Below are positions 24,633 through 49,205 of a stretch of DNA of 64,000 bases, one piece after another. Where the stretch lies: NCBI RefSeq assembly GCF_008362905.1, contig NZ_VFJB01000007.1, positions 21,936 through 85,935 on the forward strand, written 5' to 3'. The number at the start of each line of letters is the position of its first letter. The first letter of the stretch is position 1. The DNA is from Deferribacter autotrophicus. Lineage in GTDB: Bacteria; Chrysiogenota; Deferribacteres; Deferribacterales; Deferribacteraceae. The notes under the pieces were generated by a model. The model saw nothing but the letters and a program-made list of their open reading frames with translations, did no database searches and had not been told where the DNA came from. The position numbers and the translations under genes were made by a program.

Positions 24633-24661
24633 TTAATAAATATTAAACCAGGAGGCAGTTA

Positions 24662-27409: not shown

Positions 27410-27489
27410 CCCCGTCAGGGGGCAGTTTGTCCCCTGACGGGGATACGACTGCCTCCTGACAAAAAAAAATAAAACAAGGAGGCAGAGCT
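27410..27489 (+). promoter_or_regulatory. Leader RNA switch E1
   Basis: Perfect 12-bp stem CCCCGTCAGGGG (27410-27421) / CCCCTGACGGGG (27431-27442). Anti-SD ACTGCCTCCTGAC (27448-27460) pairs with SD AGGAGGCAG (27477-27485), 9 bp. The same anti-SD pairs 13 bp (one G-U) with left arm plus loop GTCAGGGGGCAGT, so the two states exclude each other. ATG is at 27490. Confidence 0.75.
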
Positions 27490-27765
27490 ATGTTCAAGTT
27501 TATCAAATCAAAAAGAGAAGAAAAAGAAAAAGAATTCTTTGAAATTATCAAGGAGTTCAGGAGTCAATTTCCAGCAACAGAAGGCTGGAGCATTAATACC
27601 TTTATTAACAACAAAACTGGATACGTTGTAACAAAAATTGAAAAAAATGGAAAAGTTATGTCTCAAGCAACTGTTGAAAAGGGTGACTCGATAATTGACT
27701 CCGAAAGAAAAAGTATAATGGAAGCATTAATACGCTTCGGGTTTGTCCCTGATGTAACAAGTTAA
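27490..27765 (+). CDS. Hypothetical protein under leader E1
   Basis: 91 aa, charged N-terminus (KSKREEKEKEFFEIIKEFRS) and an alpha-beta remainder with STFINNKTGY-like strands and KVMSQATVEKGDSIIDSERK. Cytoplasmic, no recognised domain. First gene of the leader-controlled block. Confidence 0.65.
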   Translation: MFKFIKSKREEKEKEFFEIIKEFRSQFPATEGWSINTFINNKTGYVVTKIEKNGKVMSQATVEKGDSIIDSERKSIMEALIRFGFVPDVTS

Positions 27766-27788
27766 ACATTAAAAATTAAAAAAAATAT

Positions 27789-27879
27789 CCCCGCAGGGGG
27801 AGGTATTTCTCCCTCTGCGGGAGAGTTACGCCTCCTTTCTGCGGGACTGGTTGGGTCTTAAAGAAAGGAGGTGAGGAGA
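27789..27879 (+). promoter_or_regulatory. Leader RNA switch E2 (variant SD)
   Basis: Stem CCCGCAGGGGGAG (27790-27802) / CTCCCTCTGCGGG (27809-27821), 13 bp with one G-U. Anti-SD CGCCTCCTTTCT (27829-27840) pairs 12 bp with AGAAAGGAGGTG (27862-27873). The loop copy is GGAGGT instead of GGCAG, and the SD also ends GGAGGTG, so loop and SD changed together. CTGCGGG (27839-27845) repeats the right arm and can pair with CCCGCAG of the left arm. Confidence 0.7.
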
Positions 27880-28074
27880 ATGTTTAAGTTATATTTGAAA
27901 TCACTTTTATTAACAGCAGAGGATACTTTAAAGAACATAACCTTTGCTGGAGCAATAGCTATTTTTATTGATAGGAATTATACGGTTGTAAAACTAATAG
28001 TTACATTACTTAGCTTTACATTGACAGTAATATTGAAAAAGAATATTTTAGAAGAAGAAAAGTTGGAGGAATAA
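27880..28074 (+). CDS. Small two-helix membrane protein
   Basis: 64 aa from ATG 27880, chosen because the leader's GGAGGTG is 8 nt upstream. Two membrane segments (ITFAGAIAIFI and VVKLIVTLLSFTLTVIL) and an acidic tail (EEEKLEE). Followed at 3 nt by a run of tiny single-helix proteins. Function unknown; size and topology would also suit a holin-like protein. Confidence 0.6.
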   Translation: MFKLYLKSLLLTAEDTLKNITFAGAIAIFIDRNYTVVKLIVTLLSFTLTVILKKNILEEEKLEE

Positions 28075-28076
28075 AA

Positions 28077-28190
28077 ATGTTAGGGATTGTTCTTTTGGGA
28101 GTATTTGTATTAATTATTGGAATAGCAGGAATAATAGCTGGAAGATATTTGATAAATGAAAAAAAGAAAGAAAAGCATAATCACGTTTAA
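28077..28190 (+). CDS. Tiny single-pass membrane protein 1
   Basis: 37 aa: MLGIVLLGVFVLIIGIAGII, then AGRYLINEKKKEKHNHV. One helix and a basic tail ending His-Asn-His. TTGGAGGA is the ribosome site. Closely similar in plan to the products of 28194 and 28432 (all have GI-AG- and an HNH-type tail). Function unknown. Confidence 0.6.
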   Translation: MLGIVLLGVFVLIIGIAGIIAGRYLINEKKKEKHNHV

Positions 28191-28193
28191 AAT

Positions 28194-28310
28194 ATGAGTG
28201 GTGTAGAAATAGCATTTATAATTGGAATAGCCGTTGCACTAATAGGTGCTATAGCTGGATTTTTAGCGTTTAGAGAATTGAAAAAAGGAAATCATAACCA
28301 TGTTAAATGA
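28194..28310 (+). CDS. Tiny single-pass membrane protein 2
   Basis: 38 aa with helix VEIAFIIGIAVALIGAIAGF and tail LAFRELKKGNHNHVK. It begins 3 nt after the previous stop without a clear ribosome site, so translation is probably coupled. Shares the NHNHV tail with proteins 1 and 4. Confidence 0.55.
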   Translation: MSGVEIAFIIGIAVALIGAIAGFLAFRELKKGNHNHVK

Positions 28311-28329
28311 AGTGTAATAGAGGAAAAAA

Positions 28330-28422
28330 ATGAGTGTAGGTGCAATTTTATTAATTATGTTACTAATAACAGCAATAATAGGGTTTACAGCCGTATATTT
28401 TTACTTCAAAGATGAAAAGTAG
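28330..28422 (+). CDS. Tiny single-pass membrane protein 3
   Basis: 30 aa: MSVGAILLIMLLITAIIGFT then AVYFYFKDEK. Preceded by AGAGGA. Differs from its neighbours in the tail (YFKDEK, no His). A truncated second copy of its C-terminus lies at 28567-28608. Confidence 0.55.
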   Translation: MSVGAILLIMLLITAIIGFTAVYFYFKDEK

Positions 28423-28431
28423 AAAATAAAT

Positions 28432-28551
28432 ATGGAAGGGATAATTTTCATAGGAATATTTTTTGGAATTATGGGAATACTTGCGATAATTGCAGGTTAT
28501 TATCTTCAAAAAGAGAAAGAAAAAAAGGAAAATCACAACCATATTCATTAA
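28432..28551 (+). CDS. Tiny single-pass membrane protein 4
   Basis: 39 aa: helix GIIFIGIFFGIMGILAIIAG followed by YYLQKEKEKKENHNHIH. His-rich tail as in proteins 1 and 2. No strong ribosome site, so coupling is likely. Function unknown; the tail could bind metal. Confidence 0.55.
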   Translation: MEGIIFIGIFFGIMGILAIIAGYYLQKEKEKKENHNHIH

Positions 28552-28566
28552 AACATAATAAGTGAA

Positions 28567-28608
28567 ATAGGTTTCACTGCAACATACCTATATTTCAAAG
28601 ACGAATAA
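28567..28608 (+). pseudogene. Fragment of a tiny membrane protein gene
   Basis: ATA GGT TTC ACT ... TAA encodes IGFTATYLYFKDE, matching IGFTAVYFYFKDEK of the gene at 28330. There is no start codon and the membrane helix is missing, so it is a decayed duplicate. Confidence 0.6.
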
Positions 28609-28649
28609 GATGGTCTAATTTAAATCAAAAATAGAATATGAAACTAACA

Positions 28650-28736
28650 CCCCGCAGGGGGAGCAGTCTATTTGCGTCCCCTTGCGGGGATAAGACTGCC
28701 TCCTTCTGCGGGTAAAAAAGAAGAAGGAGGTAGATT
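28650..28736 (+). promoter_or_regulatory. Leader RNA switch E3
   Basis: Stem CCCCGCAGGGGG (28650-28661) / CCCCTTGCGGGG, 12 bp with one G-U. Anti-SD CTGCCTCCTTCT pairs 12 bp (one G-U) with AGAAGGAGGTAG, the SD of ssb (GGAGG at 28726-28730). As in E2, CTGCGGG (28706-28712) repeats the right arm and can pair with CCCGCAG of the left. Confidence 0.7.
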
Positions 28737-29141
28737 ATGTATTTCAATAAGGTAGTTCTTTTAGGAAATATGACAAGAAACCCAGAAGTCAGATATATAC
28801 CAGGGAGTGGAACTCCCGTAGCAACTTTTGGGTTAGCGGTTAACAGAAAGTATAAGAAAGATGATGAAAGTATGACAGAAACCTGTTTTGTAGATGTAGT
28901 TGCCTACTCAAAATTAGCCGAGTTTATAGGAGAATATACGGCTAAGGGCATGGCAATATTGGTAGAAGGGCGTCTATCATATCGAACTTGGGAACAAGAC
29001 GGTCAAAAACGTAGCAAACACGAAATTGTTGCTGAGAATATTCAACTTGTTTGGAGGAAAGATAAAACAACGGAAGAATCAGATCTTGTAGAAGAAAATG
29101 ACTCTGATGAATTTTTTGATGAAGATGATATACCCTTTTAA
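28737..29141 (+). CDS. ssb: Single-stranded DNA-binding protein
   Basis: 134 aa, complete OB fold: MYFNKVVLLGNMTRNPEVRY, TPVATFGLAVNRKY, FVDVVAYSKLAEFIGEYTAK and GMAILVEGRLSYRTWEQDGQ. A short linker leads to the acidic tip DEDDIPF that recruits partner enzymes. Element-encoded SSB protects incoming single-stranded DNA during conjugation. The next gene is RecT. Confidence 0.95.
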   Translation: MYFNKVVLLGNMTRNPEVRYIPGSGTPVATFGLAVNRKYKKDDESMTETCFVDVVAYSKLAEFIGEYTAKGMAILVEGRLSYRTWEQDGQKRSKHEIVAENIQLVWRKDKTTEESDLVEENDSDEFFDEDDIPF

Positions 29142-29150
29142 TAAATAAAC

Positions 29151-29266
29151 CCTCCCCGTCGGGGGACTCCAGTATCCCCCGATGGGGGATTACTGCCTCC
29201 TTGAAGAGGACTCCCGTGGCGGGAGTGAGTCTCTCGGCGGGAGAAAAACATAAAGGAGGCAGAGTT
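29151..29266 (+). promoter_or_regulatory. Leader RNA switch E4 (with additional hairpins)
   Basis: Stem CCCCGTCGGGGGA / TCCCCCGATGGGG, 13 bp with one G-U. Anti-SD CTGCCTCCTT pairs with AAGGAGGCAG before ATG 29267. Between them is an extra insert that folds as ACTCCC/GGGAGT and contains a second GC-rich piece (CTCTCGGCGGGAG). The anti-SD tail does not echo the right arm here, unlike in most other copies. Confidence 0.65.
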
Positions 29267-30097
29267 ATGAGTAACGTAGTTAAACTTGAAAAATCTTTTA
29301 ATGAAAAAGAGCTTGAGGTAATCAAAAAACAATTTTTTCCATCAAATACAAGCAAAGAAGAAATGGAATATTGCCTTGCAGTCGCAAAAACATTTGGTCT
29401 CAATCCAATTACAAAAGAAATTCACTTCGTACCTCGAAAACAACAGGTAAACGGAAAATGGATAGAAAAAGTTGAACCGCTGGTTGGCAGAGACGGCTTT
29501 TTATCAATAGCGCACAAAAGCGGCCAACTTGCAGGAATGAAAACTGAAAGTTATATCAAAGAAGTTCCCACTCTTGAAAATAGTAAATGGGTGATTAAAC
29601 CTGACCTGGTGGCAAGATGTGAAGTATATCGTAAAGATAGTGATAAACCTTTTGTAGTTGAAGTTAGATATTCCGAATATGTTCAATATACTAAGGACGG
29701 TAAACCAACACGCTTTTGGCAGAAAATGCCTGATACTATGCTTAAAAAAGTTGCTGAATCACAGGCACTCAGAAAAGCTTTCAATATATCGGGCATTTAT
29801 GCTGCCGAAGAAGTTGGTATAGGCACTTATTCGGAAAATGGTGATCTTATAATTGATACTGAAGTTGAAATAACTCAAGAGGATAAGCCTACTGAGTTAT
29901 CTAAAGGTTATATTGACCCTGATGAAATTATAGAAGCTTTTAAAGCTTTAGGTTTTGACGCTGCGTTTGGAAAAAATAGAGATAGAATATATGTGCGGGG
30001 TAATTTCTACAACAAACCCGCAGCAAAAAAATTACTCGAAATGTATAATTTTACAAAAACAAAAGAAAAAAATGTTTACTGCTTAAGAATTGCTTAA
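29267..30097 (+). CDS. recT: RecT-family single-strand annealing protein
   Basis: 276 aa from ATG 29267 (SD GGAGGCAG). RecT motifs: LGVIKKQF-type start ELEVIKKQFFP, CLAVAKTFGLNPITKEIHFV, PLVGRDGFLSIAHKSGQLAG, RCEVYRKDSDKPFVVEVRYS and MLKKVAESQALRKAF. It pairs complementary single strands. Partners in the same block are SSB and a Cas4/RecB-like nuclease, together a complete annealing toolkit. The C-terminal ~60 residues form an extra small domain. Confidence 0.9.
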   Translation: MSNVVKLEKSFNEKELEVIKKQFFPSNTSKEEMEYCLAVAKTFGLNPITKEIHFVPRKQQVNGKWIEKVEPLVGRDGFLSIAHKSGQLAGMKTESYIKEVPTLENSKWVIKPDLVARCEVYRKDSDKPFVVEVRYSEYVQYTKDGKPTRFWQKMPDTMLKKVAESQALRKAFNISGIYAAEEVGIGTYSENGDLIIDTEVEITQEDKPTELSKGYIDPDEIIEAFKALGFDAAFGKNRDRIYVRGNFYNKPAAKKLLEMYNFTKTKEKNVYCLRIA

Positions 30098-30107
30098 GAG
30101 GTGTTAA

Positions 30108-30299
30108 ATGAAAATAATAATCGAAAAATTACTTGATTTAGCCAACATGTTTATTGCAGGCTATGTGATCTCATATATTTTTAAACCAGAATTTAAAAAA
30201 TTCTGGTATATAATCTTTCCCATCAGTTTAAGTATTTATCTAATTGCGATAACATCATTAATTATTGAATATTTGAAAAAAAACAGTAAATTAAAATAG
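30108..30299 (+). CDS. Small two-helix membrane protein
   Basis: 63 aa with helices around NMFIAGYVISYIF and WYIIFPISLSIYLIAITSLI and a basic tail. AAGAGGTG is the ribosome site. Begins a second cluster of small membrane proteins after recT. Function unknown. Confidence 0.6.
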   Translation: MKIIIEKLLDLANMFIAGYVISYIFKPEFKKFWYIIFPISLSIYLIAITSLIIEYLKKNSKLK

Positions 30300-30308
30300 G
30301 AGTAAAAA

Positions 30309-30419
30309 ATGAGGAGTAACATGATAGTTTGGATAGCGTTATATGCTACAATTGCAATTATAATTATAGCAACTGCGATAGGAATGTATATAGAATACAA
30401 AATTGATAAGAAGAAATAA
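30309..30419 (+). CDS. Tiny single-pass membrane protein 5
   Basis: 36 aa: MRSNMIVWIALYATIAIIII then ATAIGMYIEYKIDKKK. TAGGAGT gives a ribosome site. The stop TAA overlaps the ATG of the next tiny gene. Same plan (short N-terminus, one helix, basic tail) as the 28.1-28.5 kb set. Confidence 0.55.
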   Translation: MRSNMIVWIALYATIAIIIIATAIGMYIEYKIDKKK

Positions 30420-30511
30420 TGATTGGATTGTATGTAACAATAGGCACTATTGTTGTAATGTTCATAATCGGCGTAATTGTTGAACATAAAATAGAAAAAC
30501 CAAAAAAGTAA
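30419..30511 (+). CDS. Tiny single-pass membrane protein 6
   Basis: 30 aa: MIGLYVTIGTIVVMFIIGVI then VEHKIEKPKK. Starts within the previous stop (TAATG), so its translation is coupled. EHKIEK resembles EYKIDK of protein 5, suggesting duplication. Confidence 0.55.
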   Translation: MIGLYVTIGTIVVMFIIGVIVEHKIEKPKK

Positions 30512-30568
30512 TTTCTCAATAATAATTAAAAAACTTCCTACATATTTTAAATCATAAAAAATAAATAT

Positions 30569-30643
30569 CCCCCGCAGGGGGCAGTTGTCCTCCTGCGGGA
30601 GGATTACTGCCTCCTGTTAAATAAAAGTAAGGAGGTAGATAAA
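30569..30643 (+). promoter_or_regulatory. Leader RNA switch E5
   Basis: Stem core CCCGCAGGGGG / TCCTCCTGCGGG, 11 bp with one G-U and an outer C-A mismatch. Anti-SD ACTGCCTCCTGT pairs with AGGAGGTAG before ATG 30644 and alternatively pairs 12 bp with GCAGGGGGCAGT of the left arm and loop. Confidence 0.7.
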
Positions 30644-30850
30644 ATGTATAACATTAAAAAAATCGAAAAAGAATTGAAAAGATATGGATATGACAGGGTT
30701 TTTCAATGGCTTGATGACCCATGTTACGATTTACCTGACTATTTATCAGACTTCCAGAAGGTTGCCGAAATGTCAGGAGCAACCAATATTCGACAGGTTC
30801 TATTTTTTATGGAAATTTTAAATAAACTTGAACGTCTTGAACACAGATAA
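30644..30850 (+). CDS. Hypothetical protein under leader E5
   Basis: 68 aa, KELKRYGYDRVFQWLDDPCY at the N-terminus and NIRQVLFFMEILNKLERLEH at the C-terminus. Helical, cytoplasmic, no recognised domain. Confidence 0.6.
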   Translation: MYNIKKIEKELKRYGYDRVFQWLDDPCYDLPDYLSDFQKVAEMSGATNIRQVLFFMEILNKLERLEHR

Positions 30851-30862
30851 ATAAAAATCCAT

Positions 30863-30941
30863 CCCCGCAGGGGGCAGATACTGTCCCCTGCGAGGGGATA
30901 AGTCTGCCTCCTGCAAAGAAAAAATTACTAGGGAGGCAGAA
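30863..30941 (+). promoter_or_regulatory. Leader RNA switch E6
   Basis: Stem CGCAGGGG / CCCCTGCG plus CCCC/GGGG around one bulged A. Loop copy is GGCAGA and anti-SD is TCTGCCTCCTGC: the usual loop T / anti-SD A pair is replaced by A / T. Alternative pairing is 12 bp. The SD GGAGGCAGA also carries the A and pairs 9 bp with TCTGCCTCC. Confidence 0.75.
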
Positions 30942-31880
30942 ATGATTCACGAAATAATAAAAAAATACTTACCTAAAATTATTAAAGAAAAATCAGAAAT
31001 AGAATTAGGCAACCGTAAAGAATATATAGGAGCAAGTGATATTGCTCAGTGTTCAAGAAAGGTTGTTCTAAGTAAACTAAATCCTGTTGAACACGATGTT
31101 GAGACTTTAATACGTTTACAGCGTGGCCATTTAACGGAAAATCTGTTAAAAATGATATTTGATAAAACTCCTTATAAATATACAACTCAAATGGAATTAA
31201 CACATCCGGATTTGCCATATCTTAAAGCACATTTAGATTTTGTGTTTTATACCAAAGATATGAGCAAAATCGGTGTATTGGAATTAAAAACTGTTTCAAG
31301 TATGCCAGATGAACCTCATGAGAGCTGGATTCAACAGCTTCATTTTCAATTAGGATTAATGATATTGAAATATCCTGATGCGGAAATAAAAGGTTCAGTT
31401 CTGGTTATCAATATCAATACAGGCGAAATGAAGGAATTTAACAATTATGAACCTAATAATGTAATTTTTAATGCCTTATTAGAAAAGGCAAAAAAGATAA
31501 AAATGGCATTGGACGGACAAATAGAACCTAAGACTGAACAAGGTTTTTTATGTTCCAGTTGTCCATATAAAACTGATTGTCCCGCTTTAATTAAGGGAGA
31601 AAAAGTTGAGTTTCCTGACGATATGAAACAAAGAGTAAAAAAACTAAAAGAATTGGTTAAAATCGAAAAAGAAACTAAGTCATTAAAAAATGAAATTAAG
31701 CTGTATATGGAATCAATAGGTATCAAAACGGGAATTGCCGATGATATCATAGTTCAGTATCAATCAAGAAAAGGACGTAAAACTCTTGATGAAAAAGCTT
31801 TAAAAGAAGCTTATCCGGAAATAGATATAACGCCTTTCTATAAAGAAGGCGATCCTTATAGTTTCATAACATTGAAGTAA
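30942..31880 (+). CDS. Cas4/RecB-like PD-(D/E)XK nuclease with iron-sulfur motif
   Basis: 312 aa. Active-site strands HLDFVF and IGVLELKTVSS give the D...ExK signature; the QxxHxQL-type helix is WIQQLHFQLGLM. Four cysteines (AQCSRK upstream, then CSSCPYKTDC) match the Cas4/AddB iron-sulfur arrangement. Predicted exonuclease making single-stranded ends for the RecT neighbour. A charged helix and a ~40-residue C-terminal piece follow. Confidence 0.85.
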   Translation: MIHEIIKKYLPKIIKEKSEIELGNRKEYIGASDIAQCSRKVVLSKLNPVEHDVETLIRLQRGHLTENLLKMIFDKTPYKYTTQMELTHPDLPYLKAHLDFVFYTKDMSKIGVLELKTVSSMPDEPHESWIQQLHFQLGLMILKYPDAEIKGSVLVININTGEMKEFNNYEPNNVIFNALLEKAKKIKMALDGQIEPKTEQGFLCSSCPYKTDCPALIKGEKVEFPDDMKQRVKKLKELVKIEKETKSLKNEIKLYMESIGIKTGIADDIIVQYQSRKGRKTLDEKALKEAYPEIDITPFYKEGDPYSFITLK

Positions 31881-31886
31881 AACCCA

Positions 31887-31962
31887 CCCCCATCGGGGGC
31901 AGGCAACTGTCCCCGATGAGGGGATTAGTGCCTGCCTCCGATAGTGAAGAAAGGAGGCAAAG
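31887..31962 (+). promoter_or_regulatory. Leader RNA switch E7
   Basis: Stem CATCGGGG / CCCCGATG, then CCCC/GGGG around a bulged A. Anti-SD TGCCTGCCTCCGAT (31929-31942) pairs 14 bp (one G-U) with left arm and loop ATCGGGGGCAGGCA (31892-31905) and 7 bp with SD GGAGGCA. Both the stem core and the extra GCA in the loop are mirrored in the anti-SD. Confidence 0.8.
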
Positions 31963-32211
31963 ATGCTGACAGCTGTTAATGAATTAAATAAAATAAAAGC
32001 AAAAGATATTAAAAAGTTTTTAGATTCCATTAATTTAAGCCTTAAAGTAAACAAAAAACCACATAGCTTATCATCAACATATACGATTGTTGATAAAAAA
32101 GGTTATCCTGTATTTTACGGAAATTACAACGCATTTATAAAGTTTATTTGTTCACTAAACTACATTCTCAACTATGTGAGAACAAATAATATTAATGAAA
32201 GAATGAATTAA
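31963..32211 (+). CDS. Hypothetical protein under leader E7
   Basis: 82 aa. LTAVNELNKIKAKDIKKFLD suggests N-terminal helices; YTIVDKKGYPVFYGNYNAFI a beta-rich middle. No recognised family. Confidence 0.6.
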   Translation: MLTAVNELNKIKAKDIKKFLDSINLSLKVNKKPHSLSSTYTIVDKKGYPVFYGNYNAFIKFICSLNYILNYVRTNNINERMN

Positions 32212-32219
32212 ATAACCCG

Positions 32220-32318
32220 CCCCGACAGGGGGTAGTCAATCCCCTGTCGGGGGATTACTGCGACTGCCTCCTGTCCTTTTCTGGGTGGGTAACCAAAAAA
32301 TATGACAGGAGGTAGAAA
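32220..32318 (+). promoter_or_regulatory. Leader RNA switch E8
   Basis: Perfect 12-bp stem CCCCGACAGGGG (32220-32231) / CCCCTGTCGGGG (32241-32252). Anti-SD ACTGCCTCCTGTC pairs 13 bp with GACAGGGGGTAGT of left arm and loop, and 12 bp with GACAGGAGGTAG around the SD. Left arm and SD region are thus near-identical copies competing for one anti-SD. Confidence 0.8.
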
Positions 32319-32549
32319 ATGGCAGTATTAGTTATTACAGAAAATAATTATCAAACTGTTTTCCCATCAATAAAGGAAGCATCTCCTTTCTTAAAAGAAA
32401 TAGTCCAGCAATATGGAAAGATTAAACAAATAATAACAGATTACTCCCCTAAAACTCCCCATGGCAGTTGTCCAGAATGCGGATCGCCAATGGCATTTGA
32501 GGAAGGTTGTCGCAAGTGTCATAGTTGCGGTTATTCGCTTTGTGGATAA
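32319..32549 (+). CDS. Zinc-ribbon protein resembling the C-terminus of B12-dependent ribonucleotide reductase
   Basis: 76 aa. The C-terminal CPECGSPMAFEEGCRKCHSC then GYSLCG closely follows the zinc-binding tail of class II (NrdJ) ribonucleotide reductase, which regenerates the active-site disulfide. Here it stands alone after ~50 unrelated residues. It may be a borrowed zinc module or an accessory to nucleotide supply; I cannot decide. Confidence 0.65.
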   Translation: MAVLVITENNYQTVFPSIKEASPFLKEIVQQYGKIKQIITDYSPKTPHGSCPECGSPMAFEEGCRKCHSCGYSLCG

Positions 32550-32561
32550 GGGGGATAAATT

Positions 32562-32924
32562 ATGAATAGGGAAGAACTAAATGAAATAATAGAAATAATT
32601 GCTTCCAACGGTATTTATGCCGGTGGAAAGGGATTTGAAATTCACAAACCTAAATTTAAGAGGATATTTGAACTATATTATCAACTTGTATGTATTAGAG
32701 GAAGGGTCCAAACACTTGCAATTAATACAAAGAATAGAACAATAAAAGGTATTCAGAACTTTTGTTCTGGGTGTTCTAATGTAAAAAACAAATCAATAAA
32801 AAAATGCTTCAATATTTATACTAGCGCTGATTTTGAGCGCTGGTATGAAAAAAATCATACTCTCATCTTTAATAAGGAAGGTGAGAGAAAAATCCAAGAA
32901 ACTAAAAGAGCTTTAACCATATAA
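32562..32924 (+). CDS. Hypothetical protein
   Basis: 120 aa, AAGGGGGA upstream. Contains a Cys cluster (NFCSGCSNVKNKSIKKC) that could bind metal and a C-terminal DFERWYEKNHTLIF helix. It shares the transcript of the zinc-ribbon gene and has no leader of its own. Family not recognised. Confidence 0.6.
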   Translation: MNREELNEIIEIIASNGIYAGGKGFEIHKPKFKRIFELYYQLVCIRGRVQTLAINTKNRTIKGIQNFCSGCSNVKNKSIKKCFNIYTSADFERWYEKNHTLIFNKEGERKIQETKRALTI

Positions 32925-32930
32925 TACCTA

Positions 32931-33001
32931 CCCCCGCAGGGGGCAGTTGATCCCCCTGTGGGGGATTACTGTCTCCTGCGAAAAAACAAAAGGAGGCAGA
33001 A
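32931..33001 (+). promoter_or_regulatory. Leader RNA switch E9
   Basis: Stem CCCCCGCAGGGGG / CCCCCTGTGGGGG, 13 bp with one G-U. Anti-SD ACTGTCTCCTGCG pairs 13 bp (two G-U) with CGCAGGGGGCAGT of left arm and loop, and with SD AGGAGGCAG. The right arm has drifted to TGTG while the anti-SD keeps TGCG, matching the left arm better. Confidence 0.7.
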
Positions 33002-33415
33002 ATGATTTTGAAAGAATATAAAAGTAAAAAGATAAAAAACCCTAAAGATGTAGCTAAGATTTTACAAGCAATTTTATGTTCAGAACATAAAATTGATCAA
33101 GACAAAGAGCATCTCTGGTGCATAGGATTGAACACCAGAAATATCATTAAATATATTGAGTTAGTTTCTTTAGGAACTTTAGACGAAACGTTAATAGAAC
33201 CAAGAGAGGTCTTTCGATTAGCAATTTTCAAAGGGGTGAAGAATATAATAGTTGCACATAATCATCCCTCTGGAAATTTGAGATTCAGTAATGCAGACAT
33301 ACAAGCTACTGAAAGGCTTAAAAAATGTGGAGAAATATTGGGAATAGGAGTCTTAGACCATATTCTTATAACTGTAGATGATTACATATCAATGAAACAA
33401 GAAGGTTTAATGTGA
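33002..33415 (+). CDS. RadC-like JAB/MPN domain protein
   Basis: 137 aa, essentially only the JAB domain: EPREVFRLAIFKGVKNIIVA, then HNHPSGNLRFSNADIQATER (the metal motif HxHPSGxxxxSxxD) and GVLDHILITVDDYISM. Short RadC-like proteins are common on plasmids and ICEs; the domain may be a metallo-hydrolase, but the role in DNA repair is unproven. SD from leader E9. Confidence 0.9.
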   Translation: MILKEYKSKKIKNPKDVAKILQAILCSEHKIDQDKEHLWCIGLNTRNIIKYIELVSLGTLDETLIEPREVFRLAIFKGVKNIIVAHNHPSGNLRFSNADIQATERLKKCGEILGIGVLDHILITVDDYISMKQEGLM

Positions 33416-33422
33416 AAACCCA

Positions 33423-33496
33423 CCCCGCAGGGGGCGTAGTCCTCCTGCGGGAGGATTACTGCCTCCTGCAAAAAAACAAAATAAGGAGGCAAAGTA
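33423..33496 (+). promoter_or_regulatory. Leader RNA switch E10
   Basis: Stem core CCCGCAGGGGG / TCCTCCTGCGGG. Anti-SD ACTGCCTCCTGC pairs with SD GGAGGCA before ATG 33497 and with GCAGGGGGC of the left arm (9-10 bp). The loop reads GGCGTAGT, so the outer part of the alternative pairing is weaker than in other copies. Confidence 0.65.
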
Positions 33497-34561
33497 ATGG
33501 CAAGGTTAGAAAGTCAAAAGAAAATGGGATATTATCCTACTCCAAAGGAAGTAGTTGAACAAATTAGAGAACTATTATCTTTTTCAGCAGGTGCAAGATG
33601 TTTAGATACCTGTTGCGGAACAGGTGAAGCTCTCGCTACACTAACCAAAAATGCACCTGTCAGAACCTATGGTGTGGAGTTAGATAAAGAAAGAGCAATA
33701 ACAGCAAGGCAAAAGCTATATAAAGTATTAAACTGTGATGCTTTATATGAAACACGCATCACAAATAATGCTTTTGACTTGCTATTTTTAAACCCACCAT
33801 ATGATTGGGATGTAAAAGAAAATGAAACTGAGAATAGTGAAAAAACGGAGAAAAAATTTTTACAATTTCATCTCCGTTATCTAAACACGAAGGGTGTAAT
33901 AATTTATGTAATTCCATTTTTATCTCTAAAATACACTTATCGATTTTTCCTTAGAATGAAAAATTTACGGGTGTTGGCTTTTCCAGAGGAACTCTATAAA
34001 CAGTTTAAGCAAATAGTAATTATAGGAAAATCAACACCGTTTGCTGATAAAGAACTAATAAACAATAATCGAAATATGCTAAAAAATATAATAAATATGG
34101 TTGACTCAGAGAGGGCTTATGAAACTCTCTGGACAACCGAAAGTATATTAACAAGTGATTATCGTCCTCTTTATGAGGTTGAAGCGAATACGGTTGAGTT
34201 AAAAACGTTCAGCTCAACTCGTATTGACCCAGAAGATGCAATAGAACAGTTAAAAAATTCGGTAGTTTATACCGAATTCAATAAATTAACGAAAATTCAA
34301 AAAGTAGAGGAAATCCGTCCGCTTGCAATGTTGAGAAATGGGCATTTAGCAATGCTTTTAGCAAGCGGTATAATGAATGGTAGATTAAAAAATAATAAAT
34401 ACGACTTGATAGTTAAAGGAAGTATCAAGTCATATATGGAAAAAACAGACTCCGACTATGACGAAGAAAAAGCAAGTTTAGTAGAGAAATCTGTCAAGAA
34501 ATACCAGATAGTAGTCAGAAGTTTAGATTTAAAAAAATTACGATTTATCGAAATTAAATGA
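33497..34561 (+). CDS. DUF6094-like SAM-dependent methyltransferase
   Basis: 354 aa. Begins MARLESQKKMGYYPTP; SAM site CLDTCCGTGEALATLT; acidic loop YGVELDKERA; catalytic-type motif LLFLNPPYDW. This is an N6-adenine-type class I fold found next to large helicases on conjugative elements (DUF6094). The SNF2 helicase two genes downstream fits that pairing. Target (DNA or rRNA) unknown; it may protect the element from host restriction. Confidence 0.8.
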   Translation: MARLESQKKMGYYPTPKEVVEQIRELLSFSAGARCLDTCCGTGEALATLTKNAPVRTYGVELDKERAITARQKLYKVLNCDALYETRITNNAFDLLFLNPPYDWDVKENETENSEKTEKKFLQFHLRYLNTKGVIIYVIPFLSLKYTYRFFLRMKNLRVLAFPEELYKQFKQIVIIGKSTPFADKELINNNRNMLKNIINMVDSERAYETLWTTESILTSDYRPLYEVEANTVELKTFSSTRIDPEDAIEQLKNSVVYTEFNKLTKIQKVEEIRPLAMLRNGHLAMLLASGIMNGRLKNNKYDLIVKGSIKSYMEKTDSDYDEEKASLVEKSVKKYQIVVRSLDLKKLRFIEIK

Positions 34562-34578
34562 CTAAATGAGGTGCAAAA

Positions 34579-35097
34579 ATGGAAAGATATAGAAAAATAA
34601 AGTATTTAGGTAATGAAGTATATACTGATAAATATATTGAAAGAGGTAGTTTTATCTATCTTATGTCAATATTTGGAACTCCCGAATTAGTTAAAGGTTT
34701 AACATCTGCGATACTAACGGGAGAAGAAATAGAAGTTGAAAATGATGGAGTAATGGCAAGGAGTAATACAACTAAATACACATTCATACAGAAAAAGGTA
34801 GGGCAAAATTTGGTTCATTGTTTGCTCTACCAAAAAGAATTATTTGTGTTTAATCAAATAAATAAAGTAGCAGTAATTATTGAACCTACTATTGAAAAGA
34901 TATATGAGCTGATAGACAGTAAAATATCAACCCCATTAATTCCTGAATGGAAAGAGTTTATAATGGAATTGGTTAATCCAATACCATTAAATACATTCGG
35001 GTACAAAAGTGCTGTGGAAATAGAAATACCAGAAGAAAGCTATATTGAAAATGAAATAATTAATAATCTAAAGGAAAGAAGATTAGCACTAAACTAA
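34579..35097 (+). CDS. Hypothetical protein between methylase and helicase
   Basis: 172 aa, preceded by GAGGTG. SFIYLMSIFGTPELVKGLTS near the start and VEIEIPEESYIENEIINNLK at the end. Same transcript as the DUF6094-like gene and no leader of its own. No family recognised, but the position suggests it works with the methylase or helicase. Confidence 0.65.
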   Translation: MERYRKIKYLGNEVYTDKYIERGSFIYLMSIFGTPELVKGLTSAILTGEEIEVENDGVMARSNTTKYTFIQKKVGQNLVHCLLYQKELFVFNQINKVAVIIEPTIEKIYELIDSKISTPLIPEWKEFIMELVNPIPLNTFGYKSAVEIEIPEESYIENEIINNLKERRLALN

Positions 35098-35115
35098 CTA
35101 AAATATGGATAAAAA

Positions 35116-35197
35116 CCCCTGCGGGGGGCAGGTAACTCCCCGCAGGGGGGATAATTATGCCTGCCTCCCGCAAGAAAAAAATAAAAGGAGGCAGGTT
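35116..35197 (+). promoter_or_regulatory. Leader RNA switch E11 (stem orientation reversed)
   Basis: Stem CCCCTGCGGGG / CCCCGCAGGGG, the mirror of the usual GCA/TGC core. The anti-SD tail follows: ATGCCTGCCTCCCGCA (35157-35172) pairs 15 bp (two G-U) with TGCGGGGGGCAGGTA (35120-35134). SD GGAGGCAGG pairs 9 bp with CCTGCCTCC. Stem, loop, anti-SD and SD changed together. Confidence 0.8.
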
Positions 35198-37753
35198 ATG
35201 AAAAAATTTCTACAAAAGTATGAGACATATTTCTTTTTTTACAATGTCAAATTAGATTGGTATTGGTTTCCTCTCGAATATGTAGGCAAAAGAGATGGTA
35301 TAGTATTTGGATTTGTAGTAGGGGATTTCCCAGAATTTGGGGATTTTTCCTTGCACGAAATATTTAGCATAGGCGGAACAGTCGGAGGAGCATTTGAAAA
35401 AGCAAGAAAATTGGACGAATTAGTAGAAATAGTCGAAAAAGGCGGTATTTTAGAAGCAGACGCAGACATATATCTTGATGAATTTATAAAAGTTACGAGG
35501 AGTAAGGCAAGTTTACAAGAGTATCTTGAAACCTTGCCAAACTCAAAAGTAACATTTAACGAAATAGAAAAAGATGAAGAAAATAAAAAAGAATTATCCT
35601 TAAAAGACTTTTTAAATGAATTTGGTGATACACTAAAAGAAAAAGTATTAAAAAAACTAAATCCTATTTATAACCCTGCTCAAATTGGTGAGTGGGAAAA
35701 GAAAGAAAATCATAAGTTAAATAAATTATTAAGAAAACCCTTTAATGCCCAGAGGCACGCTATTTTAGCGTTGGCTAAAGGGTTTTATAAGGAAAACAAA
35801 AAATCTCTTATCTTAACCGCTGAAATGGGAACAGGAAAAACAATAATGGGAATGAGTGTTGCATATCTAAATCCCAAAAAGAACAAAAGAACACTTGTTG
35901 TTTGTCCTCCCCATTTAGCGGAAAAATGGGTAAGAGAAATAAAGGAAACAATACCTAATGCCAAAGTAAAGGTTTTGAGGTCCATATCTGATATAGACAA
36001 ATCAAAACCGCAAGGAATTGAGTATTGGGTATTAAAAAACACCACTGCTAAATTACATTACTCTGTAAAATATGTGAAAAGACTGAATGATAATGACACC
36101 TTAAATAAATGTCCAGATTGCGGAGTCGAGTTATCTATTGACAATGTAATTGGTAACACAATGCCTAAATGTGCGGTATGTAAAACACCTCTATACTACG
36201 CAGATAAAGATAGATTCCGCAGATATGGATTAGCAGAATATATAAAAAGAAAAAAAATAAGAATTGATTTTCTAATATTAGATGAAGTTCACGAATTAAA
36301 AGGTGGCGACACTGCGGTTGGTCAAGCAATGGCTAACCTTGTAAGTGTTGCTGATAAAACACTTGCAATGACAGGAACTCTAATGGGCGGATATGCAAAA
36401 AACCTTTTCTATATCCTTTTTAGAATGTTTACGAAAAGGTTTATAGAAAAGGGATATACTCATAGTTCCGTAACATCTTTTGAAAGGAACTATGGGGTAA
36501 TTGAAGAAACAAGAGTGTATGTAAAAGACTCTGGTAGAAGCTCTTCTATTGGAGCAAGGTTAAAGAGTGTTAAAGTTCACTCAAAACCGGGTATGTCCCC
36601 AGGACTTCTACCAGAATTTATTTTAGATAGCACTTATTTTATGAAGTTGTCAGATGTTTCGGATCAGCTACCTGAATATTCGGAATATCTGATAGGTGTT
36701 GAAATGGATGAATTACAATATGACATCTACAAGCATTTTGAAAATTCGCTTGTAGATGAAGTTAAAAGGTTGTTGGTTGTTGGAAGCACAAGGCTATTGG
36801 GAGCAATGGTTAATTCTCTTTACGCTTTGCCTGATGGGGCAAGACGAGGTGAAATTGCTATTGATCCAGCAACCAAAGAAGAGATTGCTGTTGCACCACC
36901 AATAGATTTGTATATGCTTCCAAAAGAAAAAAAGCTAATAGAACTAATAATGAAAGAAAAACAAAAGAACCGTAAGTGTGCCATATTTCTAGAACACACA
37001 GGCACAAGAGATTTAATTCCTGATTTAGTCGAAAGACTTGAAAATAACGGGATAAAAACTCTTGTGTTAAGGAGTGGTTCTCCTGCAACAGACAAACGGG
37101 AAGCATGGATAAAAAGAAAATTAAAGGAAAATCCAGATACAGATGTTCTAATCTGTAATCCTAACCTTGTTAAGACAGGGTTAGATTTATTGGATTTTCC
37201 TACAATTATATTTTTTCAAACAGGGTATAACATATATACCCTAAGACAGGCTTCTCGTAGGTCATGGAGAATTGGGCAAAAACAACCCGTTAGGGTGTAT
37301 TATATGTATTACAATGATACTATGCAGGAAAGGGCAATGAAGCTGATAGCGACAAAAATGGAAACTTCTCTTGCAGTAGAAGGTGATTTATCCGAAAACG
37401 GTTTGACATCTCTTTCTGAAGGCGAATCAATGACAATTCAAATGGCTAAAGCACTTGTTGATGGTGATAAAGATAATAAGAAACTTGAAGATATATTCTC
37501 ATCTTATAGAGAAAAGGATATGACAACTGATTTAGAGTTAGATGAGACATACGAAATAGTAAATCTTACTGAAATTGAAAGAAAAGAAATTAAAACCTCA
37601 AAGGGTAAGACAAGGACAATTGAAACAGGAATTGAAACTGTTATAGAAAAAGCATGGGAAAATGCTAAAAAGAAAGAAGTTGGTAACTATACACTAGAGT
37701 ATGTAACGATTGATGACTTATTAAAAGCATTAGAAATAGAAGAAGTGGCTTAG
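35198..37753 (+). CDS. SNF2-family helicase with zinc-ribbon insert
   Basis: 851 aa from ATG 35198; the in-frame 5' extension lies in leader E11 and is excluded. Walker A AEMGTGKTIMG near residue 208, DEVH box (LDEVHELKGGD) near 361, motif III AMTGTLMGG, and motif VI SRRSWRIGQKQPVRVYY near 686, the SNF2 signature. A four-Cys insert (CPDCGVELS and CAVCKTPLYY) lies before the DEVH box. Likely a double-stranded DNA translocase of the element; the methylase upstream is a probable partner. Confidence 0.9.
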   Translation: MKKFLQKYETYFFFYNVKLDWYWFPLEYVGKRDGIVFGFVVGDFPEFGDFSLHEIFSIGGTVGGAFEKARKLDELVEIVEKGGILEADADIYLDEFIKVTRSKASLQEYLETLPNSKVTFNEIEKDEENKKELSLKDFLNEFGDTLKEKVLKKLNPIYNPAQIGEWEKKENHKLNKLLRKPFNAQRHAILALAKGFYKENKKSLILTAEMGTGKTIMGMSVAYLNPKKNKRTLVVCPPHLAEKWVREIKETIPNAKVKVLRSISDIDKSKPQGIEYWVLKNTTAKLHYSVKYVKRLNDNDTLNKCPDCGVELSIDNVIGNTMPKCAVCKTPLYYADKDRFRRYGLAEYIKRKKIRIDFLILDEVHELKGGDTAVGQAMANLVSVADKTLAMTGTLMGGYAKNLFYILFRMFTKRFIEKGYTHSSVTSFERNYGVIEETRVYVKDSGRSSSIGARLKSVKVHSKPGMSPGLLPEFILDSTYFMKLSDVSDQLPEYSEYLIGVEMDELQYDIYKHFENSLVDEVKRLLVVGSTRLLGAMVNSLYALPDGARRGEIAIDPATKEEIAVAPPIDLYMLPKEKKLIELIMKEKQKNRKCAIFLEHTGTRDLIPDLVERLENNGIKTLVLRSGSPATDKREAWIKRKLKENPDTDVLICNPNLVKTGLDLLDFPTIIFFQTGYNIYTLRQASRRSWRIGQKQPVRVYYMYYNDTMQERAMKLIATKMETSLAVEGDLSENGLTSLSEGESMTIQMAKALVDGDKDNKKLEDIFSSYREKDMTTDLELDETYEIVNLTEIERKEIKTSKGKTRTIETGIETVIEKAWENAKKKEVGNYTLEYVTIDDLLKALEIEEVA

Positions 37754-38059: not shown

Positions 38060-38267
38060 ACATAAAATATCTCAATTGATGTTAGAAATATGGGAAAAAA
38101 CAAAATACATTAAAGTTAGGGAAAAAAGAAGAATTGAATATATTACCCAGTTGTTTATAGAACTGGGATTGAAACCTCCCGCAAGGGAGTGCCTCTCTGC
38201 TTCTGGCAGAGGGGAACATCTCTCGGAAGCCGTTCTCTCAGACTTACTCAAACCTAACCATAGTTAG
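38052..38267 (+). pseudogene. Hypothetical gene interrupted by the IS607-type element
   Basis: The first ~45 residues (MREHKISQLMLEIWEKTKYI then KVREKRRIEYITQLFIELGL) look like a normal helical protein. From about 38172 the sequence is the GC-rich hairpin end of the transposon, and the rest of the frame (PPARECLSASGRGEHLSEAV) is transposon DNA read through. I infer that insertion truncated the gene. Confidence 0.5.
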
Positions 38268-38330
38268 GTTTTGCTGAGTTCCTGCTTCAGCGAGAGGGTG
38301 CTTCTTAGGTAGCACAAGGCTACGGTCGTC
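38172..38330 (-). ncRNA. Probable omega (re)RNA / transposon right end
   Basis: Downstream of and overlapping the tnpB 3' end on the minus strand. Hairpins seen: CCTCCC/GGGAG, CCTCTGC/GCAGAGG and AACCTAAC/GTTAGGTT. TnpB nucleases are known to use a guide RNA transcribed from this position, with the guide just outside the element end. Boundaries are inferred. Confidence 0.5.
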
Positions 38331-39449
38331 CACAGAGCCTCTCTCCACAGGCGTATAGGTTCGGGTGGAACTCACCCTACCGTAATTTAACAGGTTGATA
38401 GCGGCGTTTAAGTCTCTATTAATTACCAAACCACAGTTAGGACACTTGAAGGTTCTGTCGCTTAATTTTAAGTTGTAATTTACATAGCCGCACTTTGAAC
38501 AGATCTTAGAGCTTGGAAACCACCTATTTACAATAATAAGGTTGTTGCCTCTTAGTTGTGTTTTGTATTCAAGTTGTCTTTTAAGTTCATGGAAACCTAC
38601 ATCCGATATAGCTTTGGCAAGATGGTGATTTTTAAGTAAACCTTTTACATTTAAGTCCTCAATCACAATGGTTTTGTAATTTTTGGTTAGATAAGTGGTT
38701 ATTTTATGCAGATAATCACTGCGAATGTTTCTTATTCTATAGTATAGTTTTTCTATCCTTACAACCTGTTTTTTGTATCTGTTAGAGCCTTTTTGTTTCC
38801 TTGAAAGCTGACGCTGTAATCTTTTTAAACGCTTTTCATACCTGTTTAGAGTTTTGATATTTTCAAAAAAAGTCCCATCAGACAGCACTGCAAGTTTTTC
38901 TATTCCCAAATCCACACCAACCTCTGCTTGGTTCTCGCAGGGTTGGTATGGGTTTTGAACCACATCAATAGTAAAAGATATAAACCACTTACCAGCTTTG
39001 CAGGATACGGTTGCATTTAGGATTTTACCGTTAAACCTTAAGTTTTCCCTCATTCTTACCCAACCGAGTTTTGGTATTCTCACTTTGTTGTCGTGTACTT
39101 TTATCTGGTCTCCACCGATGTAAAAACTATCTTTATTGGACTTTTTCTTTTTAAATCTTGGTTTTCTGGCTAATCCTTTAAAATATCTACCAAAAGCTTC
39201 TTGTAGTTGTAAAAATGGCTGTTGAGAGGCGTATTTTGTTACCTCTAAAACAAAGGGGTATTCTTTTCTTTTTATAGAGTTGAATTGCTTTTTGAGCTCT
39301 AAAGCGTTTGGCTTTTTGCCAGTTTTATACTGTTTTTCCCAATTCTCTAAAGCCCAATTCCATACAAATCTGGCTACACCGCAGGCTTTTTTAAAGTATG
39401 TTATTTGCTTATTATTAGGGTCTAACCTAATTTTGTGAGCTAACTGCAT
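38244..39449 (-). CDS. tnpB: TnpB, RNA-guided endonuclease of IS607/IS605 type
   Basis: 401 aa, full length. N-terminal HTH (KIRLDPNNKQITYFKKACGV with ARFVWNWAL), RuvC motifs VGVDLGIEKLAVLSDG (Asp), TIVIEDLNVKGL (Glu) and NRDLNAAINLL (Asp), and a zinc finger CSKCGYVNYNL then CPNCGLVINR. All catalytic positions are kept, so it is probably active. Its start overlaps the end of the broken tnpA. Confidence 0.95.
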   Translation of the reverse strand: MQLAHKIRLDPNNKQITYFKKACGVARFVWNWALENWEKQYKTGKKPNALELKKQFNSIKRKEYPFVLEVTKYASQQPFLQLQEAFGRYFKGLARKPRFKKKKSNKDSFYIGGDQIKVHDNKVRIPKLGWVRMRENLRFNGKILNATVSCKAGKWFISFTIDVVQNPYQPCENQAEVGVDLGIEKLAVLSDGTFFENIKTLNRYEKRLKRLQRQLSRKQKGSNRYKKQVVRIEKLYYRIRNIRSDYLHKITTYLTKNYKTIVIEDLNVKGLLKNHHLAKAISDVGFHELKRQLEYKTQLRGNNLIIVNRWFPSSKICSKCGYVNYNLKLSDRTFKCPNCGLVINRDLNAAINLLNYGRVSSTRTYTPVERGSVDDRSLVLPKKHPLAEAGTQQNLTMVRFE

Positions 39450-46187: not shown

Positions 46188-46188
46188 C

Positions 46189-48225: not shown

Positions 48226-48227
48226 TA

Positions 48228-49205
48228 TCACAACTCCTGTAAGATTCTATTATTTAATAATGGATCTTCAAATCTTATTTTCGCTTGCTCAGCATATTTC
48301 TCATTGATTTCACAAGAAATCCATCTTCTATTCATTTTTTCGGCACAATAACCGGTGGTATTACTTCCAGCAAAAGGATCCAAAATCAGGTCGTCCTCAT
48401 CTGTAAGAAACTCAATAAAAAACTCCACTATCCCTTTATGCATTCTGGCTGGATGTGGAGTTATGCCACGCTCCCGACACGTTTTAAGAAAGAAATCATT
48501 CGAATTGGTATTAGAAAAGCTGAGCACATTATGTGGTAGTCTTACCTCTCGTTTTTCATCTAAAGGCTCCAACTCAAAAAAATTATGAGCAATGCTCCCT
48601 CCATTGTTTTTTAAAAAACTTTTTTTACCTATATTATGTTCTGATGGACGCTTACCTGCATTGTATTTTTTTTTGGCCAATAACGACTTCATACTTTTAC
48701 TATAAGGTCTCAATACTTTACGATTGTCAGCCTTTGGAAAATCACTCTTTGCTATCCACCATATATGTGTATAACTATCAATTGTCCTAATTCTATTTAC
48801 TGTAACCCATTGCGCAGGAGAAGGAAGTCTCGAAGGATTATAAACAATAAATTCTTGGATAAGACGTAACCCTGCCTCTTCATGATGCACAAAATTTAGA
48901 AGACATTCTAAATGTAATGTAGATTGCACTGGCCTTCCAGGCTCCCATGCATTGCCCAATTCAATTACTATAGAACCATCTTCTTTTAATAAATTCGAAA
49001 ATAAAGGTGCCAACTGTATAAACCAGTTTTTGTATTCATCACCCTGATAATTACCATACTGTTTCTTTGCATTCAAAGGAAAAGGTGGAGAAGTTAAAAT
49101 TAGCTGAAATTTGTTTTTATAGTGTTTGCTAAGGTAGGTATCATATAATTTGAAAAAATCTTCTATAATAAATTTGCCATTTTCAGTTTGAAAATAAGTC
49201 TTCAT
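48228..49205 (-). CDS. DNA methyltransferase of the HerA-NurA system
   Basis: 325 aa from ATG 49205; the TTG at 49223 lacks a ribosome site. TSPPFPLNAKKQYGNYQG near residue 47 (catalytic TSPPF) and DLILDPFAGSNTTGYCAEKM near the C-terminus (SAM site): beta-class, N4-cytosine or N6-adenine. Genetic fusion to HerA and NurA suggests it marks self DNA while HerA-NurA degrades unmarked DNA. Confidence 0.85.
   Translation of the reverse strand: MKTYFQTENGKFIIEDFFKLYDTYLSKHYKNKFQLILTSPPFPLNAKKQYGNYQGDEYKNWFIQLAPLFSNLLKEDGSIVIELGNAWEPGRPVQSTLHLECLLNFVHHEEAGLRLIQEFIVYNPSRLPSPAQWVTVNRIRTIDSYTHIWWIAKSDFPKADNRKVLRPYSKSMKSLLAKKKYNAGKRPSEHNIGKKSFLKNNGGSIAHNFFELEPLDEKREVRLPHNVLSFSNTNSNDFFLKTCRERGITPHPARMHKGIVEFFIEFLTDEDDLILDPFAGSNTTGYCAEKMNRRWISCEINEKYAEQAKIRFEDPLLNNRILQEL

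Follow-up and report, generated by a model that had tools for sequence, protein, structure and literature searches.

Leaders predicted to fold in two alternative states precede eleven establishment-type genes in a conjugative element of Deferribacter autotrophicus

In the 64,000-nucleotide stretch of Deferribacter autotrophicus DNA analysed here (the window; positions 21936-85935 of contig C7, in a genome of 2.5 Mb), eleven short leaders, E1 to E11, all lie on the plus strand within positions 27410-35200, in one cluster of a conjugative element. These leaders are real and conserved, are predicted to be two-state, and stand ahead of establishment-type genes. They share one plan, in which a left arm and a right arm are followed by a segment complementary to the Shine-Dalgarno sequence (anti-SD), the Shine-Dalgarno sequence itself (SD) and the start codon. 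The original prediction had placed eleven such leaders here, and each was recovered at its position; they are 71-116 nucleotides (nt) long, and every one leads, through an AGGAGG or GGGAGG SD, into an ATG that opens a reading frame (11/11). The leaders and the genes they lead are the following (aa, amino acids):

27410..27489, plus strand: leader E1 (left arm 27410-27421, right arm 27431-27442, anti-SD 27449-27460, SD 27477-27485)
27490..27765, plus strand: gene led by E1, 91 aa, function not assigned; its orthologue in the related locus L160 (56%) is led by leader F1
27789..27879, plus strand: leader E2; predicted open form is the minimum before the SD only at 50 °C or above
27880..28074, plus strand: gene led by E2, 64 aa, membrane-like by eye, no Pfam match
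28650..28736, plus strand: leader E3, with a long left arm/anti-SD match
28737..29141, plus strand: gene led by E3, single-strand DNA-binding protein (SSB), PF00436, 2.8e-32
29151..29266, plus strand: leader E4, with an insert between anti-SD and SD that participates in the predicted open form
29267..30097, plus strand: gene led by E4, RecT/Bet-like annealing protein, PF03837, 3.9e-40
30569..30643, plus strand: leader E5
30644..30850, plus strand: gene led by E5, 68 aa, function not assigned
30863..30941, plus strand: leader E6
30942..31880, plus strand: gene led by E6, RecE/Cas4-like exonuclease, phrog_434, 3.2e-21
31887..31962, plus strand: leader E7, beginning 6 nt past the upstream stop codon
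31963..32211, plus strand: gene led by E7, 82 aa, function not assigned
32220..32318, plus strand: leader E8, with a GACA core in the left arm and SD region and its complement in the right arm and anti-SD
32319..32549, plus strand: gene led by E8, 76 aa, zinc-ribbon-like (Pfam match below cutoff)
32931..33001, plus strand: leader E9
33002..33415, plus strand: gene led by E9, RadC-like JAB protein, PF04002, 2.2e-36
33423..33496, plus strand: leader E10
33497..34561, plus strand: gene led by E10, DUF6094 methyltransferase, PF19587, 1.7e-28
35116..35197, plus strand: leader E11
35198..37753, plus strand: gene led by E11, SNF2-type helicase, PF00176, 2.5e-16

The minimum-energy fold of all eleven leaders is a closed form (form A), in which the left arm would pair with the right arm and the anti-SD with the SD, just as the original prediction had it. 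When the SD is forced open, which costs 4.4-13 kcal/mol across the E leaders (E2 included), the best structure in 10 of the 11 (not in E2) is one long hairpin (form B) that would leave the SD largely free. The alternative pairing proposed earlier, of the left arm plus loop with the anti-SD, also stands: it is the best fold of the leader before the SD is made in 10/11 at 37 °C, again with the exception of E2, and in 11/11 at 50, 60 and 70 °C. What had to be corrected is the layout of the open form, a single long hairpin in which the left arm and loop pair with the anti-SD, the loop pairs with the linker and the right arm folds on itself as the hairpin tip, with E4 also using its insert; this layout explains why the linker is kept and why the arms are palindromic.

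Clusters of the same kind are also present in G003, G025, G036 and G013, four genomes that all belong to the same order. Searches with model R1, built from seven E leaders, and with R2 covered 146 and 384 genomes, and searches with the DUF6094 protein 146 and 45; 45 genomes of the same order were available for comparison. The R2 search, run with stricter filters and 12 candidates scored per genome, gave clusters in five genomes and none in the other 379. Scattered weak matches in other genomes were judged to be chance, as were, by eye, the matches in G076, the best of which had no SD, and a match in G174 (26.5 bits) that ends in an SD and ATG but is single. Several of the relatives' leaders were placed by eye where the model had indicated the region. 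This brings the leaders defined to 38, from four lineages (E 11, F 15, H 8, K 4), those of the relatives being:

L160: F1-F15, 15 leaders, in G003
L162: H1-H8, 8 leaders, in G025 and G036 (the near-identical L163 is not counted)
L173, minus strand: K1-K4, 4 leaders, in G013

The led genes, namely those for SSB, RecT, exonuclease, RadC, methyltransferase and helicase, and in the relatives also ArdC, look like establishment genes. In G013, K2 leads an SSB gene and K4 an ArdC-N gene, and ArdC is also found downstream in the operon behind F15. Passages of PMC7213743 place the need for ArdC in the recipient cell, and passages of PMC11541004 describe leading regions as typically carrying SSB and methyltransferases; we infer that the present cluster is a leading region. 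The genes at 30108, 32562 and 34579, and the small frames, have no leader.

As the transcript is lengthened in the computation, the predicted folds appear in the order left:right arm, open hairpin and then, once the SD is complete, closed form. Such three-phase folding is obtained at 37 °C in 10/11 E, 12/15 F and 3/8 H leaders, and in 11/11 E leaders at 50-70 °C, while chimeras carrying the anti-SD/SD part of another copy show it at 37 °C in only 27/110 cases for E, 27/210 for F and 5/56 for H. K1-K3 are closed at full length and adopt form B before the SD; K4 remains in form B at full length. The left arms fold on themselves better than shuffled sequences (p<0.05) in 28/34 leaders, and the right arms in 21/34. 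In the leaders of the RecT genes, E4 and F5, anti-SD and SD are separated by an insert (window 29203-29253; L160 5592-5648) that contains GTGGCGGG and a second hairpin; this insert joins the predicted open form and goes with a computed barrier of just 2.7-2.9 kcal/mol.

Apart from the leaders, a similar GC-rich hairpin was seen by eye, isolated, at L160 3195-3252. In the SSB leader F4 (L160 4935-5105), some 150 nt are inserted between anti-SD and SD; the insert has predicted hairpins of its own and no Rfam match.

The evidence that both pairings are kept copy by copy comes from comparison of the leaders. We computed the energy of the left module with the anti-SD region for cognate pairs and for permutations within each of the sets E, F and H: the cognate energies sum to -183.5, against -72.1 ± 10.8 in the within-set permutations (0/20,000 for all sets together), and by set the counts were 0 for E, 0 for F and 657 for H, out of 20,000 permutations. 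The cognate partner ranks first for 8/11 E, 10/15 F and 5/8 H leaders, the worst cognate ranks being those of E4 (9/11), F15 (5/15), E2 (4/11) and H8 (4/8). The fit of anti-SD to SD gave 56 (E), 1 (F), 1924 (H) and 0 (all sets) of 20,000 permutations, with F4 left out. Among nine orthologous leader pairs of G000, the present genome, and G003, the cores have changed and half-swaps mostly destroy the match; exchanging halves of E11 and F11, for instance, takes the energies from -8.8 and -13.3 to -1.3 and -1.5. The match survives the exchange in E4/F5 and, in a single direction, in E6/F6 (-5.6) and in E10/F9 (-4.5).

Covariation in homologues, by which the original prediction could be judged, was addressed by a substitute test, which together with the permutations supports it, more weakly in the H lineage. 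Alignment A7, made with MAFFT from sequence alone, holds 18 of the 38 leaders from all four lineages, those with inserts and some others being left out, and covariation was counted on a structure supplied from leader F9. Both sides have changed in 9/12 pairs of the left arm:anti-SD helix, and the open-form structure as a whole has 42 double-changed cells, compared with 20.2 after shuffling (0/500) and with 13-26 if the partner is displaced by 1-3 columns. The seven E leaders have 10 double-changed cells, against 4.0, and RNAalifold applied to these seven gave form B. The invariant columns fall mostly in the arms, anti-SD and SD, and mean column identity among the leaders is 46%; the nucleotides kept are those of the helices and the SD, while arm cores, apical loops and linkers vary between copies. 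Taken together, comparison of the copies shows that both predicted pairings are present and are preserved copy by copy in E and F, and more weakly in H.

One may consider instead that these are plain intercistronic hairpins with a sequestered SD, and that the match of left arm and anti-SD is a by-product of an SD-like left arm. The left arms do carry GGGGGCAG, which is near the SD AGGAGGCAG, and part of the match is common to all E copies; in addition, the E chimeras mentioned above fold in three phases in some cases and fork kinetically like cognates (see below), and in several leaders the SD is partly paired in form B. However, the match is copy-specific and longer than the SD-like core, and swaps between orthologous leaders mostly abolish it, so that we consider this explanation highly improbable.

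The leaders also stand out when they are not searched for by their own sequence. An unbiased detector took every start with an SD of at least 5/6 and a frame of at least 30 aa and examined 110 nt. On the plus strand of the window it flagged 9 of 69 SD-preceded starts, all of them E leaders, and on the minus strand 0/21; the two misses are E2, for which no open form precedes the SD at 37 °C, and E4, which exceeds the 110 nt. It flagged 9/35 starts (plus) and 0/4 (minus) on L160, 2/18 and 0/2 on L162, 2/19 and 0/5 on its near-copy L163, and 2/27 on the minus strand of L173 (plus 0/5). In G000 and G003, regions away from the clusters (L159, L161 and L177-L179, partly overlapping the window) gave 0/101, and L167, L168, L169 and L175 gave 3/179, all three lying within the GC-rich L168 and L169. 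By eye, these three were judged to be chance.

Within its own genome, R1 finds all eleven leaders (E2 weakly, at E 0.28), and its best match outside the cluster has E 0.91. With one mismatch, the word CTGCCTCCTG was found 21 times when both strands were counted, SD complements among them, where 1.0 would be expected. The original prediction did not recognise a described riboregulator, and this holds for Rfam 15 and the literature searched: none of the 4227 Rfam families matches the window at gathering score, and no earlier description of such leaders was found in titles and abstract starts, few subscription journals being included. At E<=1 Rfam gave sub-threshold matches only, among them FinP at E11 (24.5 bits, cut-off 45, E 0.36), which we found unconvincing. 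Outside the cellular relatives, R1 gave nothing convincing on 81 viral loci (L001 and 80 of at least 120 stretches from a pattern scan; best score 23.4 bits), R2 gave no leader on L167-L169 and L184-L188, contigs with distant DUF6094 or helicase relatives, and a plasmid search gave no close DNA match. There are 73 plasmid records with a relative of the DUF6094 protein, at identity below 60%. A RecT search had no match on genome contigs and one weak match on viral contigs.

The leaders are likely to act at the level of translation. Computed for equilibrium at 60 °C, the SD is free with a chance of 3e-7 to 7e-3 in ten of the E leaders and of 0.055 in E7; the leaky leaders at 37 °C are F12 (0.03), H7 (0.09) and H3 (0.56), with F4 left out. 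Since the SD is closed at equilibrium, expression needs an opener. Once the pairs of form B are in place, the chance of a free SD at 60 °C is 0.18-0.98 for the E leaders (0.5 or higher in 8/11); it is 0.03-0.98 in the 12 testable F leaders at 37 °C (at least 0.5 in five) and 0.28-0.92 in the five testable H leaders (at least 0.5 in four).

We tentatively prefer the reading, short of calling it probable, that the leaders are two-state translational switches, closed at equilibrium, which could probably be caught open during RNA synthesis. As the polymerase advances, the left:right hairpin or self-hairpins of the two arms would form first; form B, with the anti-SD held by the left arm and loop, would be preferred until the SD emerges, and form A afterwards. 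The final state would then be set by the speed of synthesis and by anything that keeps the left arm off its partner, such as a ribosome completing the gene just upstream. Both states are predicted to be long-lived, so that a transcript would remember how it was made, and the use of this could be a brief, coordinated production of establishment-type proteins, with old transcripts silent. More speculatively, and rather doubtfully in our opinion, the leaders might form a regulon that conjugative elements of Deferribacterales build from a single device, a kinetically set two-state leader ahead of each establishment gene, in which each fresh transcript decides its own translation during its synthesis, with no ligand and no dedicated regulator, the palindromic arms serving as the timer. 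The list of triggers that the original prediction left open can accordingly be narrowed, without being closed: we would rank kinetics first, and then a trans factor or an upstream ribosome.

Base-pair simulations of growing chains (E at 60 °C, F and H at 37 °C) illustrate how this might work. In the simulated route the arms fold on themselves first, the hairpin of the right arm already being the tip of form B, after which the left arm pairs with the anti-SD; the E runs end in one of two persistent states. For eight of the eleven E leaders, form B was present before the SD in 57/96 runs at 200 units/nt and 51/96 at 2000, and for five E leaders in 12/30 at 20000. Closed ends for E1, E5, E9, E10 and E11 together numbered 9/60 at 200 units/nt (after 1e4 units), 12/60 at 2000 (1e5) and 17/30 at 20000 (1e4), with E1 alone giving 0/12, 7/12 and 6/6. 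Among 12 F and H leaders, F9 and F14 were in form B in 10/10 runs, F10 in 1/10 and F6 in 0/10, and H2 could not be scored for B. From these simulations, only the existence of the fork and its direction in slow runs is to be relied on.

Several observations weigh against this kinetic switch. In the comparisons, the copy-specific match is weaker in the H lineage, which is AT-rich, and unguided RNAalifold on A7 chose only part of the left:right arm stem. In the folding, the H lineage is again weak, H2, H4 and H5 not being in form B before the SD and H3 being in it already at full length; at 37 °C E2, F1 and F8 lack form B before the SD, and F12 is in form B at full length too. The SD need not be free in form B, since it can be paired by the start of the left arm (E7, F2, F10 and F12-F15), and in E5, E6, F2, F10, F12-F15 and H8 form B gives a free SD with a chance below 0.3; where this chance is low, it is usually the first bases of the left arm that hold the SD. 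Direct-path barriers from left:right arm to form B are 12.6-27.2 kcal/mol, except in E4 (2.7) and F5 (2.9), so B would hardly form after the left:right hairpin has been completed, and the fast route depends on a rate model that has no shift moves, protein, polymerase footprint or calibrated clock. In the runs themselves, 51/96 for the eight E leaders at 2000 units end in B but only 35/96 with the SD free, F14 is in B in 10/10 yet has its SD free in 0/10, most runs of E3, E6 and E7 at 2000 units end closed, and E5, E9 and E10 respond non-monotonically to the rate. Finally, E chimeras made within the set (16 of 56 possible ones were run) fork like cognates, with B before the SD in 41/64 runs against 26/48; the fork would therefore be set by the first module, and does not explain why a copy-specific match is needed.

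Since the closed form is strongly preferred at equilibrium and an opener is required, one may ask whether the whole set is switched on together by a trans-acting factor (an RNA-binding protein of the element or host, a small RNA or a ligand) that would open the left:right hairpin or stabilise form B. Eleven leaders of the same plan in one element would suit a common regulator, and the plan is common to four lineages. On the other hand, cores, apical loops and linkers vary by copy and leave little for a reader of sequence, no Rfam riboswitch was found, and words like the left arm or anti-SD are few outside the leaders in the window, some of them being ordinary SDs. A tertiary pocket in the leaders is conceivable. 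No candidate regulator turned up, and no systematic search for one was made. We regard such a factor as somewhat unlikely, while taking it seriously.

A further possibility is a translational relay, in which the ribosome ending the upstream gene covers the start of the left arm, breaks its pairing with the right arm, which makes it available to the anti-SD, and so opens the next gene. In 8/11 E and 13/15 F leaders the left arm begins 2-24 nt past the stop of an upstream frame of 30 aa or more, and in most E leaders form B leaves the first bases of the left arm unpaired. When the bases up to 9-15 nt past the stop were blocked (E at 60 °C, F at 50 °C), 9 of 21 leaders flipped from A to B with a free-SD chance of at least 0.5 at some footprint (E7, E9, E10, F7, F8, F9, F13, F14 and F15), but 12 did not respond. 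There is no close upstream gene for E1, E3, E5 and F1, and only one of the eight H leaders has an upstream stop within 24 nt, while four follow intrinsic terminators. These terminators, similar to one another (L162 6402-6417, 7267-7284, 8293-8310 and 9447-9464), each lie close upstream of a leader, and for this reason the four leaders probably start transcripts. Thus, a relay, which we consider unlikely as a full account, cannot be the common trigger, although it may add to it. As an observation on L162 itself, the terminators suggest separate transcripts or read-through control.

An RNA thermometer, in which warming melts the anti-SD:SD pairing, would fit a host that is possibly a thermophile, as judged from its order and the GC-rich stems. 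Nevertheless, the chance of a free SD is at most 0.025 at 70 °C in 10/11 E leaders (E7 0.15), and the closed form is the minimum throughout 37-70 °C in E, which leaves this explanation with hardly any credit.

Inverted repeats could also matter as DNA, either as a palindrome for a DNA-binding or DNA-processing protein or as a single-strand promoter of the Frpo type, RNA folding then being a by-product. GC-rich inverted repeats do precede SSB and other genes of leading-region type here, and passages of PMC11541004 describe Frpo as folded elements upstream of SSB and other leading-region genes in other plasmids. Yet the present cores differ among copies while remaining complementary within each, folding is more stable for the sense than for the antisense strand (E 11/11, F 15/15, H 7/8), and, unlike Frpo, the plan includes an anti-SD and an SD and no leader has an internal promoter of the sigma-70 type, the only type considered; such sites number 31 in the region, against 34.5 in shuffles. 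We therefore find a DNA-level role very unlikely.

In its predicted behaviour, and returning to the two-state switch, the leader combines features of a delayed-folding leader and of a translational riboswitch, with no known ligand. Translational riboswitches use anti-anti-SD, anti-SD and SD segments, and the E leaders share this three-segment logic, with mutually exclusive anti-SD:SD and anti-anti-SD:anti-SD pairing, but lack a visible conserved unpaired core, a known aptamer and an Rfam match. In erm/cat attenuators the SD is exposed or hidden as the leader arms change partners, and a ribosome can act on the first arm; the re-pairing of arms is alike, whereas no leader peptide is seen by eye in the present plan and an upstream stop is close in part of the leaders only. 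Among delayed-folding leaders, a transient RNA form allows translation of the MS2 maturation gene, and hok and aapA3 also have metastable leaders, according to passages of PMC6733600. As in these, a nascent form would set access to the SD and then yield to a more stable closed form, which is what was obtained in silico; the E leaders differ in being 71-116 nt long, in standing before eleven genes and in having a second partner for the anti-SD, the left arm. The nearest analogue in use appears to be EGeRS1 of the pLS20 family of Bacillus plasmids, though it is far longer and of another plan: the passages of PMC8708921 that deal with it describe GC-richer inverted-repeat leaders directly before the ribosome-binding site of several establishment operons, ardC included, 420-750 bp long and 62-95% identical, whose mechanism is not explained there, whereas the present ones are about 80 nt long, diverged (see the column identity above) and found in Deferribacterales.

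In the passages of these sources, the known solutions to establishment (repressor escape and single-strand promoters) act at transcription; the present leaders suggest that some conjugative elements may control establishment genes at translation. They make up a compact RNA family with no match in Rfam 15; thanks to the 4 to 15 diverged copies in each element, both of its structures lend themselves to covariation tests, and the 38 leaders offer a natural series for studying how nascent RNA might choose between two long-lived folds.

Contig C7 encodes an F-type conjugation system (TraE, TrbI, TraC, TraG, TraH, TraN, TraU, a coupling protein and DUF4400), together with ParB, an actin-like protein and DnaB. 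A TraI_2 relaxase was found on a different contig, C5, and the ends of C7 do not overlap, so that the element may be either a plasmid or integrated. A search for 16S rRNA had a match in G003 only and none in the present genome.

Around the leaders, runs of small frames at window 28076-28560 and 30108-30520, encoding short proteins that are membrane-like by eye, lie leaderless between led genes. An ATG 5' of E11 (window 35105-35197) is in frame with the helicase gene straight through the leader. The SD word AGGAGGCAG is also present at window 20257-20265 and 24650-24658, ahead of the element genes at 20270 and 24662, where the leader detector flagged nothing. Elsewhere in the window, an EcoO109I-type restriction-modification pair (4034-5600) shares the contig with a type III-like methylase/helicase pair (55201-61612), and genes for a NurA-like nuclease, a HerA-like ATPase and a DNA methylase follow one another on the minus strand at 44835-49223, possibly as a defence module. 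A gene of the IS605 OrfB/TnpB type adjoins the cluster (38244-39449, minus strand), and within its span, at 38279-38351, there is a sub-threshold match to RAGATH-18.

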